Below are positions 537 through 11,050 of a stretch of 41,954 nucleotides of DNA, piece by piece (the stretch's first letter is position 1; every line of letters starts with the position of its first letter). Location of the stretch: NCBI RefSeq assembly GCF_000687815.1, contig NZ_JHXU01000006.1, positions 1 through 41,954 of the forward strand, in the 5' to 3' direction. The notes under the pieces were generated by a model. The model worked only from the letters and a program-made list of their open reading frames with translations. It had not been told where the DNA came from and did no database searches. The position numbers and the translations under genes were made by a program. This DNA is from Mycoplasma elephantis ATCC 51980 (GTDB taxonomy: Bacteria > Bacillota_I > Bacilli_A > Mycoplasmatales > Metamycoplasmataceae).

Positions 537-878
537 TATGTTTTCTTTCCTCCACTATAATATGTCGAAAAAATCGGGATTTTTATTAAAAAAATAAAAA
601 AATATGAAATAATGAAAAAAAATAATACTTTCAAAGTAAAAAAAGTAATTATGTATTTAGTTATAATTCTAAAAATAGAACAATAATAAAGAATTAAAAA
701 AATTTATAGATATGGAAAAATAATTTATTAATAAATGATAAAACAATATATGAGAAATTAAAAAATATATGAAAGAATCATGGCATATTTATTTTTAAAA
801 TAAAAACATTTTAATCAATAAAATAATTTTTATTTATTTTTTATAAAATTAATATATTGCATTTATAAAAGAGGCAAA
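537..878. other. Intergenic region between divergent genes
   Basis: 342 bases, extremely AT-rich and without a convincing gene. The left end holds the ribosome site and a TATTAT-like -10 for the leftward coiled-coil gene. The right end holds the AAAGAGG ribosome site of the permease gene and several TATAAA/TATATT strings that could be its -10. No strong hairpin terminator was found. One 24-codon ATG ORF near 612 looks like chance. Confidence 0.6.
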
Positions 879-3800
879 ATGATCAAATTATTTAAAGAAG
901 TTTTTAAATCTCTTTCAAAAAATAAAGTAATAATAATTGGTTTAACTTTTTTAGTTTTTTTAACATCTGGTATCTTTACATTACTTTTTAATCTTAGAAG
1001 TTCATTTAATAATCAATTTGATGATTACAAAAAAGTTTCTAAGTTGCACAATATAACTGCGGACTTAAATTTACCTAGTAGCGGTAGCTCCTATGCGGGG
1101 GGGTACTTTGTAAATGATTTTCTTAAAGATAATCAATATAAAAAAGATAAAAATGGTGAATTTAAAACATCAAAAGAATGAAAAAATAAGTATGGAGAAA
1201 GAAATTGGGATGACCCAATAACATATGTTTCAAAGAATGATTGAGAAAAAAAACCTTCTTATAAAGTTGATTTATTTTCATTAGAAGAAGAAAAAAATAA
1301 AGATTATATTTCTTTAAAGTCATTTAATGCTAATTGAGATGATAATTTATATTTAAAAAAGAGTGATTTTAATGCTATATATTCTCATTATTTGGTTAAT
1401 AAAAACTCACCCGATAAAAATTTATATAATTTTATATTAAAAAATAAAGACTCTTATTTTGAAGTAAATGAAAAAGTTTTTAAAGATTTAAATAAAAAAC
1501 CTACTTTTGTTATATATAAAAAAAATAATAATAATTATGATTCAAATTTAGTAAATAAAAATTTATTTTTAGATGATAAATTTATTTTAGAGGACTATTA
1601 TACTAATTCTAATGAGTTTTCAAAATTAGTAAATTTTCAAAACTCAGAAGATAATACAAAAATTTACTTTAAAAATATTACACCAGCTTTTTTTAATATA
1701 GATACTAAAAAAATAACTTTTGATTTTTCCGAAGCAAAAGAATGAATAAATTTAGGTGTTGGAATTAAATTATCTAGCGAAAATACCGCAAAATTGTTTA
1801 AGTTAAAACGTCATGAAACATATCAAAATTTATTTGTTGAGGATAATGATAGTAATGTTTTTTTATTTGAACCAATTATAGAAAATAATCATAGTAAAAA
1901 AATATTCAAAAATTGAAAGTTAAATACAAAAGAATGTTCTTTCGAAAACTTAAAACCAATTATTTTTGAAGAGTTAAAAAAGCAATTTTTAGATCGAATA
2001 GATTTGTCAACACCAAATAAAATTGTATTAAAAGTATTCGATATTCGGAATGATTTATTTTTGCCAAATGAAAAATATGCTATAGATTCTAATTTTGTTT
2101 TTAAAGAGATTCAAATTACTAAATATTTTAAAAAACATTTTACCTCAACTTATTCAGAAAAATATATAAAGCCAGATATTAAATATAAAGATTTATGAAC
2201 CGGTTCATTTAAAAGTTTTATGGAAAAAATATCTGATTTTAATACACCAGAAAACTCTGAATATATAAATAAATATGGAAATATTGACGAATATGAAAAA
2301 TTAAGTTATTGATCTAAGCAATTGTTAGTTTTTTCATGAAAAGCAGATACTAATTCGTTCGACTTAAAACAAAACCTATTTAATTTTAGTAATATATCTG
2401 AGCCTAGTTTTATTGCTAAGGGTTATGAAAAGGATAATGTTAATGTTGTAGGAATCGAGGATATTGAAAAAATACTATATTGTTTTAACGAAAATGAAAC
2501 AAACTTGAAAAAAGATAATAATAATGAACTTGAGGAATATACAATTCGCAATATTGAAAAAGAATATCATTCAAATTGAGATAAAAACATAAAAAATGAT
2601 CAAATCTTAAAAAAGATTTTTAATCCAAATATTAAAAATAATCAGTTTGAAAAAATATCAAAAGGTGCTGAATTTTTCAATATTCAAGAATCTATTAGAC
2701 AAATAACAAATCTTATTGGTAAGGAAAATATTGGGTATAGAGAAACACTAACAATAGACGGGTTTAATGAAGAAACAAATAAAAAAAATGTGTTTCATTT
2801 TGTAAACACAGGGGATGAAAATAATGAAATAAACAATGTGAAATTAAAAATAGGTAAACTTTATAACGAGTTTTATGAACCTACTATGTTAAATAGCATA
2901 AGTTCATCAAAAAGTTTATTTTATAAAACAAAACAACTCCCAACATACGTGGCTGCTCAAGTAGTTGCTCAAATCTTCAAAAATGTTAATCCTGATCCTG
3001 AATATTTTGATACTGATATAAGGTTTGAACAAGTTGGCGTTGTCAATAAAATTACAAATGAAATAAAAACATACAATTCACAAAAAGTTGTAGTTTTATC
3101 TCCATACTTATTGGATGAAAATAGTAAAGATATAAATAGTGATGTATTTATTGAAGGAGAAAACAAATACCAATATGCTATTACAAAAATTGTAAACAAA
3201 TTTATTTTATTAAGAAGAAATAAAGACGAAACATTATGAAAAAGTGTTGATCCCAATTTATTTAAAGACCAAGAAATAAAAAAATCTGATAATAGAATGA
3301 ATGAATTTGAAATGAAAAACTTTTTTATAAAAAATAATTGATTCACTATTCATTATAATTCACCAATTAAAGAACATGGCTGAGCTAAACAAGATCCACA
3401 ATTTAAAAATTTTGTTTATCTTCCAATGATTTATTTGGCTGCTCACAATGAATTAATTTCAGAAGCATATAAAACCGGAACAGTTAATTTTATGGTTTCA
3501 AATGTTGAACGTGTTCTTTTAAATTTAGATTTAGTAAAAAACAATTTTATTGATGTTGAATTCATATCAAAATTTGTTTCTGTCGGAAAGAAAATTCTTG
3601 AAGAGAGTAATTTCGGGAAAGTTTTTGCCACTGGCAAAATAAACTTAAAAATTATTCCTATTTTGATGATTGATATTTTTTATGAGTTATCAAATGAGAA
3701 TCCCGGAATAATAAATAAACTTTTTAGTAATTTTTTTCAACAAGTAAATTTACAAATTTTAAATCAGCCAAATTTTGAAAAATATTTTGAAAAAGAATTT

Positions 3801-6800
3801 AATAAGATGAATTATCTTTTTGATAAAGTTTTCGGGTTTAGTATTTTAAAAAAAATACCAGCAGAAACTTTATTAAACATTTCTAAAGATCCTCGTGAAA
3901 TGATTCAAGCATTTTCAGATTTGATAAATTCGATTGATTTCAAAAAATGATTATCAATAATGCATGATTTTTTTCATTTAAAAGATTCACATGGGAATAA
4001 TTTATATTATGGATCTTTTGATAATGAAAATTATGAGAGAGTTTTATCATCAATTGACATAATAAAACCATTATTGGCTTCTATAGATACTCACCAATTT
4101 ACAAAATCTTTAGTGAAATTAATTGAAAGTATTGACTTTAATTCATTGCTTGGTCATGAGAACAGTATTTTAAGTTCATTACTTCCATCTGATAGCCCAT
4201 TATGAAAAATTATTGATAAATTAAATCAGAATAATGACTCAAAAAATCATCCAGAAAATAATTTTAAAGAACTAAAAATGGGATTAATAAAATTAATTAA
4301 TATCTTAGATCTAGATTTATTCTTTAAAAAATTAGGATTAAATAATTTTGAAGGTGATCGTGTTGATGTTTATTATTCCCCTAATATAGTTGATGGTGTT
4401 GAAGATCCATCAATTATTCATAAATTGCGTCTAGGAATGTTTAAATTATCAAATATTATAAAAGCATTTTTTGAATCAATTTTTGAAGGAAAACAAAATA
4501 ATGTAATTCTTAAAAATATATTAATAGATATGTTTAATTTATCAAATAAAACCGAACCATTAATGGGAATTAACATACCTGCACCAGATGATAAAAAAAT
4601 AAGCATTTTTGATTTAATATCATTAACAAATGTTAAAAAAGATTCAAATAAATTAAATGAATTTCAAATATTTGACTTGTTAAGCAAAACAGTAAATGAT
4701 ATAAATGAAAAAGTGATTAATAAAAACTATTTAAATAGACAAGAAATTGAGTTTATTAATTATTACTTAGATATAGATACTGATTTAATAGATTCTATTT
4801 ATATAGAGAAATTAAAAGAAAAACTAAAAAATTTTTCTGTTCTAAAAGATATTTTAATAGGCAATAACTCAATATTAAATATAAGTAATAATTTCTTAAA
4901 TATTTCGCAAACTAATGGGTCGATAGGAATAATTACTGACAAATTTAATGAACTTCTTAATAAACCAGAAGATATATACGGTCAATCAAGTCTTATGTCT
5001 CCGTTATATTTCTATCTAACAAAATTATTTACTAATATAGATAATTCAGAAGATGCTAAATATGTAGCTGAAAAAATACTTAATTTTATTTTCTTGCCTT
5101 CGTCAAAAGAAATTTTGGATGAATTAATAAGTGAAAAATTAGAACCAAATGAACCTAATATTAGGAACATAAATATATTAAAAACTGTGAACGGACTTGT
5201 TAACTATAGAAATATAGCTGATAAATGATGTGATTTTAAAAATAATAGTTATTTAAAAAAATATATTGAACAAGATCCAATTCTTGCAAAATATCTTTTT
5301 AAAAAAACTTCTTCAAATAATGTGTTGTTTGAAGAAATTAAATACGATACCTTTTATTATTTTGCAATGCTTGCCTCTAGCAAAAAGTTCACAAAAGACG
5401 ATGGTTTTGAATCGTTAAAAAACGGTTCATATTATTTAACACAAAAACAATTTATTGATTTAGTTACAAAAAAAGATAATTTTGAAAATATAGATTTATT
5501 AAGCAAATTTATTTATAAATATTCAAAAACTTCGCAAATTCTTTTAAATCTTAATATTCCACCATTAATTATTAATCCATATTTAACACCAATAAATACT
5601 GGAATCCTTTTATCGTTTATTTCAAACACTAATAAAGATGGTCAATCGTTAGAATCGGGGAATTTGGCGCACATTTTGCTTAATAAAATAGCTGATTTTG
5701 ATCAACTTACAAACAACAAAATATGATTAAAAAGTTTTATAGATTCTATATTGCTTGATGTCTTACCAGAAAAAAACAATATTTATTCTTTAATTAGTAA
5801 AGATCAATTAAATAATCTTGTTATTGATAATGCTTATTTTGATTACTTGAAAAAATTAGATGAAAAACAAGACTTATCAGTTTTCGGTATTAATCTAGTT
5901 GATTTAATATATGAATCAATTCATTCTATAACTTATAAAAGTGCAGTAGATGATTTAATTAATTTTAGTGATGTTGGTAGTTATGTTGCTAAAGCAAATT
6001 ACTTATATTTATCACTAAATAATAAAGAAATTTACAAACCGAAAGAAAATTTTAAAATACCAACAGACCCTGTTGAAATTGAAAAACTTATTGCTCAATT
6101 AGATGATAAATATATATTAAATGTTAATGGAAGTAAATTTATAATTTTGGGGGAAGAAACAACTGTTGATTATTTGTATCCTGTTATTGATGAAAATAAT
6201 TTACAAGTTAATTCAAAAAACCAAGCTATTGTATATGTAAATAATAAAGGATTCGATCGTATTAGAAACGCATACCAAGGTAATGTTGTTAAAAAATATT
6301 TATTAATAAAAAATAATAAAGATATACCAAATGAACAACTTAAACAAGACGTTGAAAAAGTTATAAGTGACATAACTGGTCCTGGTGATCTTATAAAAAG
6401 GGTTTATTTATATGATGAAATAGATCCTATTAACCCCGAAAGATCAATGAGGGTAATGATGCCTTCATCAATAATTAATATGATTGATAAAACGAGTGTT
6501 TTAATTATTTCTGCTCTTATAACACTTGTAGCTTTATCAATAATATTTATAATTAGACGTTATATTACATCTAAATCGAAGGTACTAGGTATTTTGATGT
6601 CTCAAGGTTATAGTAGAAAAGAAATTGCAACATCATTGTTAGTTTTTTCCGCCTTCACATCAATAATAGGGGGGGTTCTTGGTTACGTTATTGGGTCTCA
6701 AATGCAATTATACTTAATGGACATTTTTGGAAATTATTGAACATTACCAAAAGAAAAAATACCATTTAATTGATTCTCAATGATATTTACAATATTTATC

Positions 6801-9260
6801 CCATTCATAGGTTCTTCTTTACTAATTTTCGTTATAACATATTTAATGTTATGTATTAAACCTATAGATTTAATGAGGGGTTCAAATGAAATATCTTTCA
6901 AAAAAACTCAAACATTAATTTCGAAATCAAATAAATTAAATATAAAAAACAAGTTTTCTTTAAGTTTAATCTTAAATTCAATTGGTAAATTAATTTCTTT
7001 CATGTTTTCAATTTTACTAACTACAATTGTTTGTGCATTTAGTATAGTTTCTATAGGGAAGTTTGAATCAATAACAAAAGATACATATAGTAATAGATAT
7101 TATAATTACAAGATTGATTTAGGAACACCAACATTAGAAGGTGGTGTATATAGGACTTATGGGTCTCAAGACTTAGGAAATTCCATTTATGTTCCTAGCG
7201 GAACATCGAATGAAATAGAAACTCCGCTTTATAATTATTTCCGTCCAGGATATTCAAAAGCAATTAATTATAATAACAATAATGGTAATGTTGCAATTAA
7301 TTCAAAAAATTATGAACCTCATATTATTACTCAATTTAGTGTAAATATTGGTATAGATGCAGGGGTTAGTGTTGATCCATGGCAAATAACTTATAATTCA
7401 ATGCCCGATACACAAAAATCAAAAGTTAATGCTGTTCGTGATTCTGTAGGTTTTGCATTGCAAAATGCGAAAAATCCAAATTATGAATTGCATTATAAGT
7501 TACATGATATTGTCCTACAAAATATTTATGAAAAACTTAAAAAAACATACCCTGATAGAATTAAATTAATTACAGATATAGATATTATTAACAACATAGA
7601 ACACAAAAAAGAATACGATTTAGAAATAAAAGATAAATTAATAAAAAAAATATTACAATATGAAGCTGAAGCTAATTCTTATAATGAGGATAAAATTGAT
7701 AAATATTACAATTCATTAATTAATAACAATTTAATTTTTAAATATGTTAACTTATTTGGTGTTTATGCTCTAGATAAAAAAACTAACAAAAAAACTGATT
7801 TTTTCCTTTACACAAATACAAAAATAAATAATGAATTTAAATATTGTAAAAAAGTAAATTCAGAATCATATAATGAAGAAGACATTACTAGTACTTCACA
7901 TAGAAGTGAATATAGAGATTTTTTAATAAACGGTTATAAAAGTATTTATTTAAATCAATTTAATAATTCTATTTTTAAAATTAATAATAATTATAAAGAT
8001 TATTATATTTCATTTGGAGGAGTATTCTTAGATCCTAAACATGATGAAAAATACACTTATGTTGAATCAAAAATCAATGATTCAATTATTAAAATTTACG
8101 GATATAAAGAAAATTCTAAATTTATTAAACTAACAAACAATCTTTCAAATAATTTGCATAAATATCAAGGAAAATATATTCCTCTTATAGTAAATGAGGT
8201 TGCAAGTCATAAATTTAATTTGCATGTTGGAAGCGTTATTGAACTTTCTACCTTAAATAAAACAAATAGATATACAAATAAACTAAAAGAGATAATAAAT
8301 AATAAAAAAAATGATGAATCAAAATGTAAGTTTGAGGTTGTCGGAATCAATAAGACATTTATTAATTATGAATTTATAACAACAAAACAAAAAGCCGATG
8401 AAATTCTTGGGCTAGATAAATTATTTAATAACTTAGAAGAACCATTTAATGGGATAATGACAGACGCAAAAATGCCGGAGCAAGTAACGGGTTCTTCAAC
8501 CTTATATTCTCCTAGTGGTTATTGACCTGCATTAAATAATTTTGAAATTGAAACGCTTTCACAACAAGATAAAGAACAAATATTTGATAATTTATTTGGA
8601 ACCAATGTTACATGAACATCAAATAATTCGCAAGATAGTTGTGTTTTTGAAGAATTAGGATTTACAAAAGAAGAAACAATGAAGTTTCTAGGATCTTTTG
8701 ATAACCCTATTGAAATTAAGGATGCAAAAGCAAATCAATTAGAACAATCAATAAATAAATATTCTGGAATATTCGACAAACAATTATATGTAGCGCTAGC
8801 CACATCTATTGATTCAAAAGATATAGAGTCTGGTTTTGCATTAAATATTGCTGGTACAATTGAGAGTTTATTAATATCTATTATTGTTATTTCATTTACT
8901 ATTTCTATTATTATTTTAGTTATCATTTCTACAATATTAATCAATGAAAATCAACGAAACATAGCGATTCTAAATGTTTTAGGTTATTCACAAAAAGAGC
9001 GGATATGACTAATATTTTCTGTATTTGTGCCATTCATTATTATTGCATTAATAATGAGTATTCCAATAACTATCTTCTTAATTAACTTATTTACAACATT
9101 AATTCTTAATTCAAGTTCTATATTTTTACCATTGACTTTAACAATTTGACCAGTTTTTGTCACAACTGTCATAATATTTACTGTTTTCTTAATAACAACA
9201 TCATTGGCATGATACTCTATTAATAAAATGAAAGCAATTGATTTATTGAAAGGGAAATAA
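879..9260 (+). CDS. Giant ABC transporter permease, FtsX-type (2,793 aa)
   Basis: One open frame of 2,793 codons once TGA is read as Trp; the ATG follows AAAGAGG. Residues ~16-40 form an N-terminal membrane segment, followed by ~1,830 residues with few hydrophobic stretches, probably extracellular. The FtsX core begins near residue 1870: a membrane helix, then the coupling-loop motif LGILMSQGYSRKEI, then two more helices ending in the IDLMRG motif. A further helix lies near 2030-2060, then a second external domain of ~600 residues. A second FtsX block starts near 2660, with AILNVLGYSQKERI, three helices and IDLLKGK at the C-terminus. This duplicated FtsX plan matches large mycoplasma permeases. 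The stop overlaps the ATPase start (TAATG), so the two are translationally coupled. Substrate unknown; lipoprotein or peptide export and surface-protein handling are guesses. Two G7 tracts (1097-1103, 6669-6675) encode Gly-Gly. Confidence 0.93.
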
Positions 9261-10138
9261 TGAAAAAAAATGAAAAAAATTCAATATTTGATAAAAAAGT
9301 AAATCGTAAAAATATTTTTAATATAATAAACGAGCATAACGAAAACATTATTACAATACCATATAAAATAATAAGAATAATAAATAAAGCAAACAAAAAA
9401 CCACGTCCAAAAGATGAAAATAAGAATTTAAAAAATGCTGAAGACAATATTTTTGATATTCAAAACGTTACCAAATATTATTTAAGCGGCAATACCTTGA
9501 CCAATGTATTAAAAAATATTTCATTTACTATTAAAAGAGGCGAGTATGTTGCCATTTTAGGTAAGTCTGGGAGTGGTAAATCAACATTGCTGAATTTAAT
9601 GTCGGGATTAGATAGGGCAAGTAATGGCAATGTTATTGCAAATAATGTTAATTTACCATATTTATCAGATGGTAATTTAACAAAATTTAGGCGAAACAAT
9701 GTAAGCTTTATATTCCAATCTTATAATTTGCTTGAAAATTTAACTAGTTATGATAACGTAATGTCTGGAGCATACTTACAAAAAGATAAGAAAAAAATCT
9801 TAGATATAAATGAATTGTTCAAAGAATATGATGTTGAAGATGTTAAATTTAAGTTTCCGAGTATGATGTCAGGTGGTCAACAACAAAGAATATCAATCTT
9901 AAGAGCTTTAATAAAAAATGCACCTATTATTTTTGCTGATGAACCAACAGGAGCTTTAGATCCCAATACAGCAAAAATAGTTCTTGAGAGTTTAGATAAA
10001 ATTAACAAAAAATACAATACAACAATTATTATGGTTTCACATGATAAAAAAGTTGAAAATTTAGTTGATAAGGTTATATATTTAAAAGATGGAAACATTG
10101 TTGACATTAAAATAAACAAAACAAGAGGCAAAATTTAA
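9260..10138 (+). CDS. ABC transporter ATP-binding protein (LolD/MacB-like)
   Basis: 292 aa. A basic N-terminal extension of ~65 residues precedes a complete nucleotide-binding domain: Walker A GKSGSGKST, Q-loop FIFQSYNLLENLT, signature MSGGQQQR, Walker B IIFADEPTGALD and H-loop VSHD. The EPTGALD form and the YNLLENLT segment are typical of the LolD/MacB group that partners FtsX-type permeases. Its start codon shares one base with the permease stop, so the pair forms one two-gene transporter. The N-terminal extension is not part of the usual ~230-aa family length. Function: ATP hydrolysis on the cytoplasmic face driving the giant permease. The ATPase call is firm; the transported substrate is not visible. 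Confidence 0.95.
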   Translation: MKKNEKNSIFDKKVNRKNIFNIINEHNENIITIPYKIIRIINKANKKPRPKDENKNLKNAEDNIFDIQNVTKYYLSGNTLTNVLKNISFTIKRGEYVAILGKSGSGKSTLLNLMSGLDRASNGNVIANNVNLPYLSDGNLTKFRRNNVSFIFQSYNLLENLTSYDNVMSGAYLQKDKKKILDINELFKEYDVEDVKFKFPSMMSGGQQQRISILRALIKNAPIIFADEPTGALDPNTAKIVLESLDKINKKYNTTIIMVSHDKKVENLVDKVIYLKDGNIVDIKINKTRGKI

Positions 10139-10165
10139 TCTTAAATAAATTATTTATTAAAAATG

Positions 10166-10171
10166 TATAAT
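10166..10171 (+). promoter_or_regulatory. -10 box ahead of the riboswitch
   Basis: A perfect TATAAT preceded directly by TG. The expected transcription start, 7-9 bases downstream, falls at about 10178-10180, exactly where P1 of the purine aptamer begins. No good -35 is visible. The fit suggests that the aptamer opens its own transcript rather than being the 3' end of the ABC operon. Confidence 0.6.
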
Positions 10172-10179
10172 TTTTTTAA

Positions 10180-10243
10180 TGGTGTATATATAGTTTATAA
10201 AGGTAACTACGTTTCTACCACCTACCAAAAGGTGACTACACCA
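10180..10243 (+). promoter_or_regulatory. Purine riboswitch aptamer, guanine-type core
   Basis: The three-way junction can be traced base by base. P1 is TGGTGTA (10180-10186) paired with TACACCA (10237-10243), 7 bp. P2 is TAGTT (10191-10195) with AACTA (10205-10209); its loop carries GG at 10202-10203. J2/3 contains the family hallmark GTTTCTACC (10211-10219). P3 is CACCT (10219-10223) with AGGTG (10230-10234); its loop carries CC at 10225-10226, which can make the conserved loop-loop kiss with the P2 GG. J3/1 reads ACTA, so the specificity base (position 74 in the xpt numbering) is C at 10236. That base selects guanine, or 2'-deoxyguanosine in some mollicute variants, over adenine. An intrinsic terminator follows 22 bases later. 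Confidence 0.85.
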
Positions 10244-10265
10244 CCCCCTTTTTTCTATTTCATAT

Positions 10266-10291
10266 AAAAAAAGCACAGTTTGTGCTTTTTT
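10266..10291 (+). terminator. Intrinsic terminator after the riboswitch
   Basis: Stem AAAAAAGCACA with TGTGCTTTTTT, loop GTT, ending in a T run. It lies between the purine aptamer and the kinase start, so it is either the riboswitch expression platform or the end of a short aptamer-only RNA of ~115 nt. I found no convincing antiterminator pairing between the P1 3' strand and the terminator arm; only the CTTTTTT just after P1 could compete for the A-rich left arm. Confidence 0.8.
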
Positions 10292-10306
10292 AATTTTAAA
10301 TAAATA

Positions 10307-10312
10307 TATAAT
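10307..10312 (+). promoter_or_regulatory. -10 box giving a possible leaderless kinase mRNA
   Basis: TATAAT with exactly six bases before the ATG at 10319, so transcription from here would start at or next to the start codon. The kinase gene has no Shine-Dalgarno sequence, which agrees with leaderless translation. No clear -35 is visible, and AT-rich chance matches are common. Confidence 0.4.
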
Positions 10313-10318
10313 AATTTA

Positions 10319-11050
10319 ATGTATAAAATTACTCAAGGACTTACAAATTATTCATATATAGAAGATAAATTTTTTGTTCAAGAAAAAAATAAAAATCCGT
10401 TTAATCATAATATTGATTATTCCATTTTAAAAATACTTAATTTTATTCCTAAACTAATATATCAAGACGACAAAAAATTAAAGTGAGAATTAATTGAGGG
10501 AGTAATCCCTAAATTGACAAATGAAAATATTTTGAAAATAGCCGATTGTTTAAAAGAACTTCATAATTCAAAATTATCTTTTCCAAAATTTAATTTAAAA
10601 AATAGAATAAATAAATATTTACAAATAATGAAAAACAAAAATATAAATATAGAAAAGGTAAATTCATATTATCATCGTATAAACAAGATATTATCAAATA
10701 TGTCAAAAAATATTCCTTGTCATAATGATTTGTGACTACAGAATATGTTAATCAAAAACAACAAAATATATATTGTTGATTGAGAATATGCAACAATGGG
10801 GGATAAACATTTTGACCTAGCGTATTTTATTGAATCAAGTAATTTAACAGATGAACAAGAGACATTATTTTTAAATAGATACGATGATTATGTTTATGAA
10901 TATGTTTTACAACAAAAAATTTTAGTTAATTATTTAATTATATTATGAGTCAATTCTCAAGATATAAAATATTTTGATGATAAACCTTATATTGAAAAAC
11001 TGGATAAGTATCATAATGAAATATTAAATAGAAGAAAAAAAGAATCTTAG
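10319..11050 (+). CDS. Choline/ethanolamine kinase-like phosphotransferase (LicA/APH fold)
   Basis: 243 aa. The catalytic (Brenner) motif is near residue 133 as CHNDLWLQN (HxDxxxxN) and the Mg-binding motif near residue 152 as IVDWEYATMG, followed by FDLAYF. This is the aminoglycoside phosphotransferase/choline kinase fold. The N-terminal nucleotide-binding lobe is short and weakly conserved. Mycoplasma relatives are usually annotated LicA (choline kinase), which would phosphorylate choline for lipid or glycolipid head groups; thiamine or other small-alcohol kinases of the same fold cannot be excluded. The first ATG (10319) is used; it has no ribosome site and sits six bases after a TATAAT. 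The gene follows a purine riboswitch and terminator, an unexpected partner for this family. Its last four bases overlap rbfA on the other strand. Confidence 0.8.

Follow-up and report, generated by a model that had tools for sequence, protein, structure and literature searches.

A conserved guanine-class aptamer in Mycoplasma elephantis that may belong to a separate short noncoding RNA

The window analyzed here is a 41,954-nucleotide stretch of the 770-kb genome of Mycoplasma elephantis ATCC 51980 (G000), in which UGA encodes Trp. An earlier note on this DNA had assumed that mollicute code, and TGA is indeed read as Trp in the neighboring genes. An FtsX operon ends in an ABC ATPase gene, and 42 nt behind the ATPase stop codon lies a purine aptamer, which is followed by a linker, a hairpin, and a kinase gene. 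The permease gene of the window (879-9260) encodes a 2793-aa FtsX-type protein, in which Pfam recognizes little outside the FtsX domain. The features discussed below are as follows.

9260-10138, + strand: MacB/LolD-type ABC ATPase gene at the end of the upstream FtsX operon; the same neighbor is present in the sister species (G002).
10166-10171, + strand: promoter-like TATAAT, called from the sequence; the G002 aptamer also has an upstream TATAAT (TGATATAAT).
10180-10243, + strand: guanine-type purine aptamer (RF00167, 47.1 bits), with none of its 17 pairs lost in G002 and 2 of them compensatory.
10244-10267, + strand: C/U-rich linker CCCCCUUUUUUCUAUUUCAUAUAA, a candidate output module, conserved in G002 and predicted to be single-stranded.
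10267-10291, + strand: intrinsic-terminator-like hairpin with a U-run (about -11 kcal/mol, z -6.2).
10307-10312, + strand: TATAAT, a likely leaderless kinase promoter, at -12 from the kinase ATG.
10319-11050, + strand: gene for a LicA/choline-kinase-like (APH-fold) kinase, matching PF01636 and PF01633.
Contig C19 of the same genome, 731-3068, - strand (L056): guanine riboswitch ahead of xpt-guaA; the contig is 4.4 kb long.

The earlier note had proposed a promoter-like box before the aptamer, a terminator after it, a kinase of the LicA/APH fold, and a TATAAT serving that kinase. All four were located. It had also described a guanine-type aptamer, which we searched for with covariance models. 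In a focused scan of 301 bases against all of Rfam, RF00167 matched at 10162-10258 (+) with 47.1 bits (E 4.5e-7), above its gathering score of 37 bits, and a whole-genome RF00167 search returned the same aptamer, again at 47.1 bits (E 2.8e-7). A fast Rfam scan of the entire window returned three tRNAs only, and the aptamer was presumably removed by the filters of that scan. The parts that the note had named are all there: a 7-bp P1 (10180-10186/10237-10243), P2 (10191-10195/10205-10209), P3 (10219-10223/10230-10234), GG in L2 and CC in L3, the J2/3 sequence GUUUCUAC, and C at the specificity position (10236). P2 and P3 are each one or two pairs below the canonical lengths. The fold energy of the aptamer alone was not above chance (z about -1), so we base the case for it on conservation and the covariance model rather than on stability. 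By these sequence measures, we consider it a genuine member of RF00167.

The guanine contacts of the riboswitch are U22, U51, and C74 (PMC9295807). All three are kept in the window aptamer, as read from the RF00167 alignment, and the core looks guanine-type and matches guanine-I. The altered binding-pocket bases that would be expected of a 2'-deoxyguanosine riboswitch such as 2'-dG-I were not found. Therefore, 2'-deoxyguanosine, which had been raised as a possible ligand, is less likely, and guanine or hypoxanthine is the predicted ligand.

We extended the analysis to the genus by using RF00167 with relaxed filters. G002 has an aptamer with 40.5 bits, and no aptamer of this type was found in the third genome of the genus by the same search. 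Each of the 17 stem pairs is kept in G002, and two of the pairs have undergone compensatory changes (G-C to A-U in P1 and U-A to A-U in P3), in a covariation assessment that comprises two sequences only. The two aptamers are identical at 59 of 70 aligned columns. As a background, fourfold-degenerate sites in five flanking orthologues were identical at 109 of 270 positions (40%), so these sites are close to saturation. The promoter stretch of the element (19/40; 48%) and its terminator (12/28; 43%) are at this background. The linker is not: 22 of its 24 aligned positions (10245-10268) are identical (92%), for which the binomial chance is about 2e-6 given a background of about 45%. Therefore, the aptamer and linker have been under constraint, while the promoter and terminator sequences have drifted. 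In a BLAST search of 135 family genomes, the element was found in these two species only; the remaining matches were short, A/T rich, and due to chance.

This conservation bears on one simple explanation, which is that the element is the relic of a riboswitch whose purine gene has been lost and that it has no present function. A purine gene is adjacent in neither species, as that explanation would predict. However, aptamer and linker are strongly conserved at a divergence that has saturated fourfold sites, which speaks against a relic, and we consider this explanation very improbable.

The conserved linker is a new finding that the earlier note had missed. Structure prediction left it largely unpaired in both species, and pairing back onto the aptamer reached at most about 6% over most positions, with values as high as 22% at a single C of the G002 linker. 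When its pattern was searched on both strands of 320 genomes of the order, it was found in the window genome and G002 only, with no second exact copy or complement. A search for trans targets with AAAAAAGGGG gave 5 sites versus 2 for the control in G000 and 4 versus 4 in G002, counts that include the element itself. These are few and near the control counts, so there was no enrichment and no convincing trans target. A duplex scan of the linker against the window and the G002 region returned only the self-antisense as strong.

Transcription of the element is expected to start near 10178, although TATAAT boxes are common (57 in the window's + strand). Its end is predicted from the terminator hairpin, and a hairpin of different sequence lies at the corresponding place after the G002 aptamer. 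The terminator was predicted in both species whether P1 was open, closed, or blocked. An antiterminator search that used folding with a blocked P1, nascent lengths, and duplex scans yielded nothing convincing that was conserved and coupled to P1 in both species, and no terminator or antiterminator exclusive with P1 was found in the window or G002. We also noticed a wobble-rich helix between the P1 5' strand and the terminator 3' arm, which was judged to be due to chance.

The kinase gene appears to have a promoter of its own. In M. gallisepticum, a promoter is made up of a TA[T/A]AAT box, and leaderless mRNAs occur in small number (PMC4245973). A -10 box lies at exactly -12 from the kinase ATG in the window, G002, L028, L032, and L031 (L031 by eye), and -12 is the spacing expected of a leaderless mRNA. 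There is no Shine-Dalgarno sequence before the kinase gene. The kinase is 45% identical to that of a named relative, Mesomycoplasma hyorhinis, and its best NCBIfam match is thiamine kinase (80.7 bits, below the cut-off). Orthologues occur across the family in varying gene surroundings, and no aptamer was seen before any of the family orthologues examined.

The G002 aptamer is at the equivalent place, following the FtsX permease and ATPase genes as in the window. However, what lies downstream has changed. Homology between the window and G002 runs from 818 to 10270, is interrupted over 10271-10303, and picks up again at 10304 with the kinase promoter. Within the break, the window has the hairpin only, whereas G002 has a hairpin of its own and a TrlF-like cassette of about 3 kb (L055) between the aptamer and the kinase gene. 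The cassette encodes a split TrlF-like PHP-type protein and an AAA ATPase, both matching NCBIfam TrlF below the cut-off. It is defense-like and has been inserted or lost exactly between the linker and the kinase promoter. A diverged PHP copy of the same family is present in the window's own genome (G000:C5:43136-43828). Directly downstream of the aptamer, then, there is no purine transport or salvage gene in either species: there is the kinase gene in the window and the TrlF-like cassette in G002. In the synteny comparison suggested by the earlier note, the aptamer thus stays where it was and the cassette separates it from the kinase gene.

These findings must be weighed against the possibility of a conventional cis riboswitch, in which guanine would alter termination at 10267-10291 and allow read-through into the kinase gene. 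The aptamer, terminator, and kinase gene are on the same strand in the classical order. The linker U-run can also pair weakly with the A-rich terminator base in homologous columns of both species (about -2 kcal/mol in nascent window RNA). However, that helix does not overlap P1, so the ligand could not control it directly. The G002 cassette might be a late insertion that broke the link. Its family is sporadic (12 of 58 relatives), so insertion into G002 is plausible, and a recent insertion would leave the same picture; the element could then owe its form to earlier selection for kinase control. Even so, the kinase gene comes with a conserved promoter of its own at leaderless spacing, it lacks a Shine-Dalgarno sequence, and its orthologues elsewhere are without an aptamer. 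We consider cis control rather unlikely. The synteny in G002 and the promoter spacing also disfavor the kinase as a purine-linked target, so it is probably not the target of the aptamer. The earlier note had offered three options. Two of them, that a purine controls the kinase or that the kinase acts on something purine-linked, have lost support, whereas the third, a stand-alone RNA of about 115 nt with a separately promoted kinase gene, has gained it.

The aptamer might instead serve the operon upstream, tuning 3'-end formation or stability of the ATPase mRNA with guanine. That operon is the upstream neighbor in both species that carry the element. However, common descent would lead one to expect the same gene order in any case, both species have TATAAT boxes in the stretch that separates the ATPase gene from the aptamer, and the transporter is MacB/LolD-like rather than a purine carrier. 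This explanation seems improbable to us.

Purine riboswitches are generally viewed as purine-gene leaders, and the window genome has one further copy (65.3 bits) that is exactly that. It precedes xpt (above the NCBIfam cut-off) and then guaA (L001/L056). It belongs to RF00167, like the window aptamer, but it sits in the classical leader position before the genes for xanthine phosphoribosyltransferase and GMP synthase and has no linker. Against this textbook arrangement, the window copy stands out as unusual. G002 has only weak xpt homologues, and the element under study is its sole detected purine riboswitch. As a close xpt is missing from both sister genomes, the xpt-guaA operon may be a recent acquisition. 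In g14, another genus of the family (L014, L019, L021, L018, and L020), purine aptamers precede genes that resemble purA and the gene of a PnuC-like transporter, as judged by eye. Compared with guanine-I (RF00167), the window element has the three-way junction, U22/U51/C74, the GG/CC loop contacts, and a score above the cut-off. It differs in having no purine gene downstream, no antiterminator that we could find, slightly short P2 and P3, and a conserved linker before a seemingly constitutive terminator.

A stand-alone RNA of about 115 nt fits best because the aptamer of G002 keeps its place while the cassette parts it from the kinase. The leaderless kinase promoter, the aptamer-free orthologues, and the P1-independent terminator suggest that the kinase gene is transcribed alone and that the aptamer RNA ends before it. 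We put the chance at about even that the guanine-class aptamer makes up the 5' portion of a short noncoding RNA of its own, in which it is followed by a conserved output tail. Such a transcript (about 10178-10292) would begin at its own TATAAT, fold into the aptamer, carry the conserved single-stranded C/U-rich linker behind it, and end at the terminator, which is predicted to form regardless of P1 closure. Binding of guanine (or hypoxanthine) would alter its folding or stability and hence how accessible the linker is; the linker, in turn, would act in trans, on a second RNA or on a protein. A more tentative proposal is that the RNA is a trans-acting regulator in which guanine determines the exposure or dosage of the linker as a seed or protein-binding site, and we regard it as possible but doubtful.

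To our knowledge, few riboswitches work as RNAs in their own right. In layout, the nearest precedent appears to be EutX/Rli55, an AdoCbl-riboswitch noncoding RNA with an aptamer and an effector site on one RNA (PMC5821096). Like the RNA proposed here, EutX/Rli55 has an aptamer and then a second conserved module, in a short transcript that is not a gene leader. However, its ligand and aptamer class are different, and the window element, described here from sequence evidence only, has no EutV-type dual hairpin that we could see and no known partner. If the stand-alone reading is true, the few free-standing riboswitch RNAs on record (EutX/Rli55) would be joined by one of a new ligand class. Mycoplasmas have few transcription factors, and a regulator-poor mycoplasma would gain a purine-responsive small RNA.
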